Positions 10,969-14,406 of a stretch of 32,931 nt of DNA are shown here, in pieces. The notes below the pieces were generated by a model, which saw only the letters and a list, made by a program, of their open reading frames with translations, was not told the origin of the DNA and searched no databases. The stretch is from Klebsiella pneumoniae (GTDB lineage: Bacteria; Pseudomonadota; Gammaproteobacteria; Burkholderiales; SG8-39). The stretch is from assembly GCA_945906755.1 (NCBI GenBank), contig CAMDRJ010000014.1:1-32931 (forward strand), read 5' to 3'. The first letter of the stretch is position 1. Every line of letters begins with the position of its first letter. A program made the position numbers and the translations under genes.

Positions 10969-12606
10969 CTAAAGCGTTCCTCGTTCGCGAAGATCCCGAT
11001 CGCTAAAATCCCGATCGCTAAAATCAATCACGATATTGCCCGCATCATCACATCCAGCCTGCGCACCCGGCGGAATGACGCAGGTTGAATCGTATTCCTC
11101 GATGATCAACGGCCCGCTACGCGTTGATTGCAGCGCCGCACGGTGCACGATCGGGGTGTCGAGCCAGCCATGGGTTCGGCCGAAATAGGCGCGGCGTGAG
11201 GCTGCGGCGCTGCGTTCTTTCCGCGTTGATCGGACCTTTTCGGGAACACTCGGACGAGCCCTGAGTCCTTCGCCGACGACCTGAATGGCGACAGGTTCCA
11301 CCGGCTCATCGGGCCCGGCACGATGCCCATAGGTTTTTTCATGCTCCTTGCCGAAGGCCTCTTCCAGGTGGGCGGCCAGCGCGGCGTCCAACTTCAGCGC
11401 ACCGCCGACGAGATGCTTCGGATTGAGATAACCCAGCACGACATTCGCATCGGTGATGGTGGGAATCGTGCCGCCCTTGCCGTAACAGACCGGGCCGGGA
11501 TGCGCCCCGGCACTTTCGGGGCCAATCTGCATGGAGCCCGCGGCGTCGATCCAGATATGCGAACCACCCCCTGCACCCACTTCGGCCAGATCAATCGCGG
11601 GTACCTTAAGTGTGTAGCCGGCGCCGGTGAGGAGGCGCGAGCCGATCATGATGCCCGCGCCGACCGAGTATTCGCTCGCGCGACTCACCGCGCCGTCTTC
11701 GACCATTGACGCTTTCGCGGTGGTCCCGCCCATGTCGAACGTGATGATCTTTGGCAGTCCTTTCGCGTGTGCCAGTGCCTGCGCCCCCACCACGCCGCCG
11801 GCCGGACCGGACTCGATGATATTCATCGGGCGTTCGATCGCCGCGAGATCGGTAGTGAGTCCGCCGTTTGATTGCATGAGCAGGATCCGTGCGGGAATGC
11901 CGGCATCATTCAATCTTTTGCGCAGCGACTGCAGATAGCGCGCCACGATCGGCATGACATAGGCATTGACCACCGTTGTTGAGGTGCGTTCGTATTCCTT
12001 GATTTCAGGCAGGACTTCAGCGGAGACACTGAGCGGCAAGTCGGGTGCTTTGCGGTGAACCATGGCCTTGATCGCCAACTCGTGCACCGGATTGGTAAAG
12101 GAATTGATCAGGCAGATTGCCATCGCCTCAACCCGTTCGGCGAGCAGTGCATCGATTTGTCGGATGGCATCGGCTTCATTCAGCGCGCGCTCGATGTGGC
12201 CACGTGCATCGATCCGCTCATCGACGACTCGGCGCAGATAACGTTCCACCAAGGGGACCGGCTTGGTCCATCCCATGTCGTAGAGCCGCGGCATGCGTAG
12301 CGTTCGTATTTCCAGGATGTCGCGAAAGCCTTTGGTGGTGATGAGACCTACGCGTGCGCCTTTTTGCTCGAGGATTGCGTTCGATGCGACGGTGGTGCCA
12401 TGACGAATCTCCTCGATCGCCGTGCCATCCAAGTTCGTTTCGCGAAACAATTCGGCGAGCCCTTGGACGATGGCGCGCGCATAGTCGTCGACGCTCGAGG
12501 AGATTTTCTTGGTATGGATGCTGCCGTCATCACCCAGCAGCACGATGTCGGTGAAAGTCCCGCCGATATCGACGCCGACGCGATAAGTGATCATCGCATC
12601 ACGCAC
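10969..12606 (-). CDS. hyuA: Hydantoinase/oxoprolinase A subunit (HyuA family) with a large internal deletion
   Basis: HyuA-type subunits work with HyuB in ATP-dependent opening or carboxylation reactions (N-methylhydantoinase, 5-oxoprolinase, acetophenone carboxylase relatives). The N-terminal part is canonical: VGVDIGGTFTDIVL, RHGTTVASNAILE, LLMQSNGG, SGPAGGVVGA, FDMGGTTAKAS, GAGGGSHIWID and the GPVCYGKGG motif. After residue 405 (GGALKLDAAL) it jumps directly to the C-terminal segment (KEHEKTYGHRAGPDEPVE). The family's middle block of roughly 150 residues, with the GGAGP nucleotide-site motif, is absent. Length is 545 against about 680-700 usual. The start is GTG at 12606, abutting the hyuB stop, or ATG at 12594. 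The C-terminus holds a 15-bp tandem duplication. Probably inactive or altered; true substrate unknown. Confidence 0.8.
   Translation of the reverse strand: MRDAMITYRVGVDIGGTFTDIVLLGDDGSIHTKKISSSVDDYARAIVQGLAELFRETNLDGTAIEEIRHGTTVASNAILEQKGARVGLITTKGFRDILEIRTLRMPRLYDMGWTKPVPLVERYLRRVVDERIDARGHIERALNEADAIRQIDALLAERVEAMAICLINSFTNPVHELAIKAMVHRKAPDLPLSVSAEVLPEIKEYERTSTTVVNAYVMPIVARYLQSLRKRLNDAGIPARILLMQSNGGLTTDLAAIERPMNIIESGPAGGVVGAQALAHAKGLPKIITFDMGGTTAKASMVEDGAVSRASEYSVGAGIMIGSRLLTGAGYTLKVPAIDLAEVGAGGGSHIWIDAAGSMQIGPESAGAHPGPVCYGKGGTIPTITDANVVLGYLNPKHLVGGALKLDAALAAHLEEAFGKEHEKTYGHRAGPDEPVEPVAIQVVGEGLRARPSVPEKVRSTRKERSAAASRRAYFGRTHGWLDTPIVHRAALQSTRSGPLIIEEYDSTCVIPPGAQAGCDDAGNIVIDFSDRDFSDRDLRERGTL
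10995..11024. repeat. 15-bp tandem duplication at the hyuA 3' end
   Basis: CCCGATCGCTAAAAT occurs twice in direct tandem (10995-11009 and 11010-11024). On the minus strand it encodes FSDRD twice near the HyuA C-terminus, keeping frame. A typical replication-slippage product. Confidence 0.85.
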
Positions 12607-14406
12607 TCAGCGAATCGGCGTGTTGGGTTCATCGCGCTGCACGGTCGGCACTTTCGTCCATCCGCGTGCTTGTCGAATCGATTCGCGAAGAACCTGTGTT
12701 TGCGCTTCGTTGACGGTCCAACGCTCGGTATCCAACACGACGCCATAGTCCTGCCGTGCTTTCGCGGTCGATAGGAATTCATTACGCACGTCTTTCAGCA
12801 CGGCGAGCGGGTCGCGTTTGAGCGGATCGCCCCAACCACCGGCGCCTGCGAGCACATGCCGCAATACATCGCCCTTCTTCACCGTCATCGTGAACTTACC
12901 GGGTAGTGGCCGACCCTCGATATCCGGATTGAGATAGTTCTCGGAGGGGCTGCCCGGATTGCCGCCGTAGAGTCCAAACGGCCGATGATCGCGGCGATCG
13001 GAGCGGACTTGCAATGTGCCTTCCAGCTCATTGAATCGATAGTCGCGCTTGAAGGGGACCCCGCCGCGGTACTCGCCGGCCCCGGCCTTATCGGAGACGA
13101 ATTCATAGGCAAGGAGCGAAACCGGATGCTCCGCTTCAGTGACCTCGATCGATTGCGAGGCCATATTGGCAAACATATGCGAATTGCCGTCGAGCCCATC
13201 TGCCCATGGCCGCGCACCCCATGCGCCGCAGGTGAAATCGACATATACGAAGGGCTTGCGATTGGCGTCATAGCCACCGATCGAGACACCTGAATTGCCA
13301 CCGTCGCCGGCGGCCATCACCTTGTCGGGCAGCATCATCGCGAGCACGCCGAACATGCAATCGACCATCCGAAAGCCGGTCAGGCCACGTGCGGCGCAAG
13401 CCGCCGGCAGCACCCCATTGCCAATCGTTCCCGGCGGGCAGATGACTTCGATCGCCCGAAACACGCCTTCGTTATTCGGAATCCCCTGCGGCAGGACGGA
13501 GCGCACGCCGGTGTACGCGGCGGCTTTGGTGAATGACAGCGTGTTATTGATCGCGCCTTTGACTTGCGGACTCGTGCCGGTCCAATCGACGATGATCTGA
13601 TCGCCGCGTTTAGTCAGCGTAACAAACAGCCGAATCGGTTTGCCATAGTCGATGCCATCATCGTCGATCCAGTCCTCAAACGACCACTCGCCATCGGGGA
13701 GCTTGGCAATCGCCGCGCGCGTCAGCCGTTCTGCATAATCGATCGTTTCCGCCATGAATTGCTTGGTTTCTGCCGCCCCGAATTTTGCGATCAGATGGGA
13801 AAACTGCGTCTCGGCGATATGACATGCGGCAAGCTGTGCGCGCAGGTCACCGGCGACTTGCACCGGCAAGCGCACGTTCTTCTCGATGAACGTCATGACG
13901 GTGCGGTTGAGCTTGCCGGCTTCGTAAAACTTGAGCGGCGCGATACGCAGCCCCTCGGCATAGATTTCAGTGGAATCCGATGCGTTGGACCCCGCCACGC
14001 GACCGCCTACATCGCTGTGATGGCAAACAGTGCAGGCAAACGCGACGCGTTCACCAGCGTGATAGAGCGGTTTGAACACAAAGATGTCCGGCAAATGCAT
14101 GCCGCCATCAAATGGGTCATTCATGATGAACACATCGCCTGCGGCCATGTCGTGTGCATAGTGACGCATGATCGAAGCCATGGCAGTTGGCACGGACCCG
14201 AGATGCCCCGGCAAGGTGAGCCCCTGCGCGACCAGCTTGCCGCTCGCATCGGCGATGCCGGTCGAATAGTCCATGTTGTCTTTCAGCACGCCTGAGTAGG
14301 TCGTGCGAAACACCGTCAACGCCATTTCATCGGCGATCGAAAAGACCGCGTTCTTAAACAGTTCGAACGCGATTGGATCGCGCGTTGCCGACATCGGATT
14401 GTCCAT
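12607..14406 (-). CDS. hyuB: Hydantoinase/oxoprolinase B subunit (HyuB family)
   Basis: Partner of the HyuA-type subunit. From ATG 14406 the product is 599 residues, normal for HyuB, and the whole family pattern is present: RDPIAFELFKNAVFSIADEM, STGIADASGKLVAQG, PGHLGSVP, MNDPFDGGMHLPDI, CHHSDVGG, the GAINNTLSFTKAA region, GNSGVSIGGY, and the C-terminal GAGGWGDPLKRDP. The frame is open upstream to 14586, but that extension is Arg-rich and unlike the family; ATG 14394 (MSATRDP) is an equal alternative start. It is first in a two-gene minus-strand unit, its TGA directly abutting the hyuA start. Unlike hyuA it looks intact. The substrate cannot be told from sequence: hydantoin, oxoproline or an aryl ketone type are all possible. 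Confidence 0.88.
   Translation of the reverse strand: MDNPMSATRDPIAFELFKNAVFSIADEMALTVFRTTYSGVLKDNMDYSTGIADASGKLVAQGLTLPGHLGSVPTAMASIMRHYAHDMAAGDVFIMNDPFDGGMHLPDIFVFKPLYHAGERVAFACTVCHHSDVGGRVAGSNASDSTEIYAEGLRIAPLKFYEAGKLNRTVMTFIEKNVRLPVQVAGDLRAQLAACHIAETQFSHLIAKFGAAETKQFMAETIDYAERLTRAAIAKLPDGEWSFEDWIDDDGIDYGKPIRLFVTLTKRGDQIIVDWTGTSPQVKGAINNTLSFTKAAAYTGVRSVLPQGIPNNEGVFRAIEVICPPGTIGNGVLPAACAARGLTGFRMVDCMFGVLAMMLPDKVMAAGDGGNSGVSIGGYDANRKPFVYVDFTCGAWGARPWADGLDGNSHMFANMASQSIEVTEAEHPVSLLAYEFVSDKAGAGEYRGGVPFKRDYRFNELEGTLQVRSDRRDHRPFGLYGGNPGSPSENYLNPDIEGRPLPGKFTMTVKKGDVLRHVLAGAGGWGDPLKRDPLAVLKDVRNEFLSTAKARQDYGVVLDTERWTVNEAQTQVLRESIRQARGWTKVPTVQRDEPNTPIR

Follow-up and report, generated by a model that had tools for sequence, protein, structure and literature searches.

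The hydantoinase/oxoprolinase pair HyuAB considered here, a putative ATP-dependent ring-opening enzyme, shares its two-subunit architecture with the Pseudomonas jessenii caprolactamase CapAB (PDB 6YRA; NCBIfam NF050156/NF050157). In CapA, the ASKHA ATPase module is made up of residues 1–84 and 242–494, CapB is contacted by helix N (418–438) and an omega loop (553–560), and DxGGTxTD, DMGGT and GxxPGP are given as the family's ATP-site motifs (PMC8453981). Against the NCBIfam equivalogs, HyuAB scores far below the cut-off (397.6 vs. 1000; 288.1 vs. 1000), so that they assign it no substrate. Both subunits have their best sequence match (340.9 and 335 bits) in N-methylhydantoinase (PDB 7HK5, 9H03), whose A and B halves are complete and fused in one chain, whereas here they are encoded by two separate genes, of which that for A is cut. 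Full-length hyuA orthologues occur in Reyranella, Vineibacter, Enhydrobacter and related proteobacterial genomes; in their N-terminal 400 residues they show c. 80% identity, and most, as here, have hyuB directly upstream. They encode proteins of c. 695 amino acids with a GGNGP block that our HyuA lacks. The locus lies in a stretch of 32,931 nucleotides (the window), where the relevant features are:

12607..14406, minus strand: hyuB (hydantoinase/oxoprolinase B subunit), intact, 599 amino acids from the ATG at 14406
10969..12606, minus strand: hyuA (hydantoinase/oxoprolinase A subunit), 545 codons, open frame with a 507-bp internal deletion
11371..11388, minus strand: deletion junction in hyuA, inside a short, imperfect direct repeat (window sequence GACGCCGCGCTGGCCGCC)

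The hyuA frame, which directly follows hyuB on the minus strand, runs uninterrupted from 12606 to 10969 and determines 545 amino acids rather than c. 695. Its product passes from ...GGALKLDAALAA straight to HLEEAFGKEHEKTYGH, in frame, and against six orthologues (L068, L011, L090, L014, L032 and L053) the register jumps by exactly 507 nucleotides (169 codons). This bears out the claim of an earlier note, made from the window alone, that HyuA has lost a central block by an in-frame join between well-preserved flanks; the loss is somewhat larger than the c. 150 residues then estimated, and the nucleotide-binding motif assigned to the missing block is indeed present in orthologues, but as GGNGP and not GGAGP. 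The blast pieces that align the window with the corresponding locus of a sister genome (L068) overlap by 18 bp at 11371–11388, and the repeats at the junction are likewise of c. 18 bp, imperfect and roughly half matching in the sister.

What has been lost from the protein? The Hydant_A_N domain is present (Pfam, 163.5 bits, profile positions 1–173 of 176), and the three ATP-site motifs are kept at residues 13 (DxGGTxTD), 291 (DMGGT) and 367 (GxxPGP); the Hydantoinase_A (ASKHA) domain is incomplete (230 bits, only positions 1–217 of 291). HyuA aligns with CapA (6YRA chain A) in two pieces, residues 7–411 with 5–402 and 404–522 with 567–687, leaving CapA residues c. 403–574 without a counterpart, so that the ATPase module loses its end and neither of the reported CapB contact segments (418–438 and 553–560) remains. 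The partner subunit, by comparison, is intact, as the earlier note had stated: HyuB aligns end to end with its orthologues, matches Pfam Hydantoinase_B throughout (519 of 519 positions, 548.9 bits), and aligns with CapB 3–575, retaining in the alignment to 6yra_B the residues that correspond to the metal ligands D46, H104 and D107, plus H129 or H130.

AlphaFold models, made for the short HyuA from an alignment of 26 sequences and for a full-length orthologue from nearly the same alignment, are consistent with damage to the fold, the short form reaching a pLDDT of 59.2 where the orthologue has 81.2, and a pTM of 0.51 where the orthologue has 0.83. Residues 307–409 of the short form were of low confidence (pLDDT below 50), and within them residues 311–400 scored 21–36, against mostly 65–94 in the corresponding part of the orthologue outside its 307–339 loop; the query-normalized TM-score against 6YRA chain A was 0.58, compared with 0.81 for the orthologue. 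The models would suggest that the second ATPase lobe is lost, although modelling a deletion mutant carries little weight on its own, because the alignment is made of full-length proteins.

The earlier note had asked whether relatives possess the missing block and whether close homologues share the short form. A scan of 84,980 species genomes gave 80 relatives, and the block was present in all of the c. 70 orthologues (74–91% identical) long enough to show the region, none of which had the short form. Likewise, when 98 genomes of the same family were searched, there were, leaving aside the gene of the window itself, seven strong matches (the sister among them), and none of the seven was short at the deletion site. 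By these comparisons, the short form is private to the window genome; a natural short subfamily was considered and rejected, as the form is absent from all orthologues. We draw attention here to three public metagenome-derived genomes (L074, L076 and L089) in which hyuA orthologues align in broken pieces, with gaps or frame changes at window residues 316–357, 297–318 and 185–201, respectively; by these examples, damaged copies of hyuA would seem not to be rare.

The sister is the only other genome of the genus that was compared (MAG Baikal-deep-G98; its locus L009 in G001 and L068 are identical in sequence). The operon has the same genomic neighbourhood there as in the window, synteny holds on both flanks of the junction, and the sister's hyuA carries the missing block. 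This also disposes of the idea that the short gene is a chimera of two hyuA paralogues, since on either side of the junction the sister orthologue is the closest relative and is syntenic, and the next paralogue in the genome is only 50% identical. The sister's operon is nevertheless damaged in other places, one of which corresponds to an undamaged part of the window:

13571..14158, minus strand: hyuB stretch present in the window and removed from the sister by a 577-bp frameshifting deletion

At this deletion, the colinear blast pieces in the sister stop at 593 and restart at 605 (L068 coordinates). In addition, the sister hyuB has a TGA c. 29 codons ahead of the gene end (L068 1479), and its hyuA is frameshifted near residue 325 (L068 c. 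2540–2549). Each of the two genomes of the genus thus carries its own, independent damage to the operon. As expected of a pseudogene, the disruption in the window is private to one lineage, the gene being intact or independently damaged in relatives.

Both copies bear the marks of past purifying selection. Between window and sister, dN/dS was 0.086 for HyuA residues 7–400, 0.213 for the C-terminal part of HyuA and 0.076 for HyuB. The C-terminal parts are 76% identical, very much as in orthologue pairs with the same N-terminal identity (91%), for which the mean is 75.8% (sd 3.9), so accelerated evolution of the C-terminal part after the deletion, which we considered, is not seen. Together, the low dN/dS (c. 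0.08) and the normal C-terminal identity imply that both copies were constrained for most of the time since the split and that the damage is recent in both; any relaxation of selection since the disruption would be too young to show. Changes at conserved sites in the N-terminal part of HyuA were slightly raised in both genomes (6/246 and 10/244, against an orthologue mean of 0.6%), but not decisively so.

How often do such deletions occur between these two genomes? Over 245 kb of aligned sequence, there were 16 sharp length differences of at least 90 bp, only three of them inside clearly conserved genes: hyuA (window genome), hyuB (sister) and a YceH/DUF480-like gene (window genome). The last of these (contig C12, L107 c. 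4631) has lost 337 bp internally, with a frameshift, in comparison with the sister (L160:2211–3317); it is called YceH-like from family features of its translation. That two of the three fall in the hyuBA operon speaks for relaxed selection on it, while the third indicates that such deletions also arise elsewhere in the window genome's assembly.

The interpretation that we favour, and think probable, is that hyuA has suffered a recent and probably inactivating deletion in an ordinary, dispensable hyuBA operon that is being lost in the genus. In the window's lineage, a 507-bp stretch of hyuA would have been removed between the two short imperfect direct repeats, which fit slippage or illegitimate recombination, with an in-frame outcome by chance. 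The product, if made at all, would have neither the last part of its ATPase module nor its two HyuB-docking segments, and so would presumably be unable to activate substrate with ATP; HyuB would still be intact only because the deletion is recent. Some features sit uneasily with this interpretation, in that an open frame and well-preserved flanks are what a working gene would show, and the sister lesions, like the window's, come from metagenome assembly. There is also a rival account, which we regard as unlikely but by no means negligible: the true hyuA may be full-length, the 507-bp block having been dropped from the assembly through a chimeric read or a bubble collapsed between the short repeats. 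The window genome does look metagenome-derived and is fragmented (381 contigs, 92% complete), the YceH-like gene has its own sharp deletion, and the junction sits in short repeats; these, however, are too short and imperfect to collapse alone in a normal k-mer assembly, and random assembly error would not favour a single operon, hit in different genomes, for two of the three gene-internal differences.

Between the two options offered in the earlier note, a tolerated inactivating deletion fits best, given a private deletion, independent lesions in the sister and the availability of paralogues (see below), and the other, a new role for a shortened A subunit, found no support. A short HyuA that partners or regulates HyuB in truncated form, or that functions by itself, could account for the open frame, the conservation of both flanks and the survival of three ATP-site motifs. 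We consider it very improbable, however, as no relative has the short form, the missing block takes in the counterparts of the CapA segments in contact with CapB, the second ATPase lobe collapses in the model, and the sister operon is broken too. Slightly more doubtful still is the more specific proposal that a stable short HyuA has a role other than ATP-driven substrate activation, and that its frame has for this reason been kept open while the sister's was frameshifted.

If, as we think, hyuA is decaying, its function may have been taken over by paralogues, or the need for it may have gone. The earlier note had suggested looking for another full hyuA, and the window genome in fact has at least eight further genes of the hyuA type, several of them full-length and none more than 50% identical to this one, though among them there is no second copy of the deleted orthologue. 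Its specific function has therefore probably been lost, while related enzymes remain. HyuA-family genes occur on contigs C1, C6, C8, C9, C41, C159, C264, C285, C316 and C369 of this genome (G000), and represent an expansion of ATP-dependent amidohydrolase/carboxylase-type enzymes.

Beyond annotation, the case matters little: the label that suits this hyuA is that of a probable pseudogene, or of a suspect assembly, and not that of a functional hydantoinase subunit. Because the sister's copy of the operon is broken in other places, it is most likely that we are dealing with an ordinary gene in decay and not with a novel type of protein. Separate events in the two compared genomes appear to be removing the hyuBA operon from the genus.
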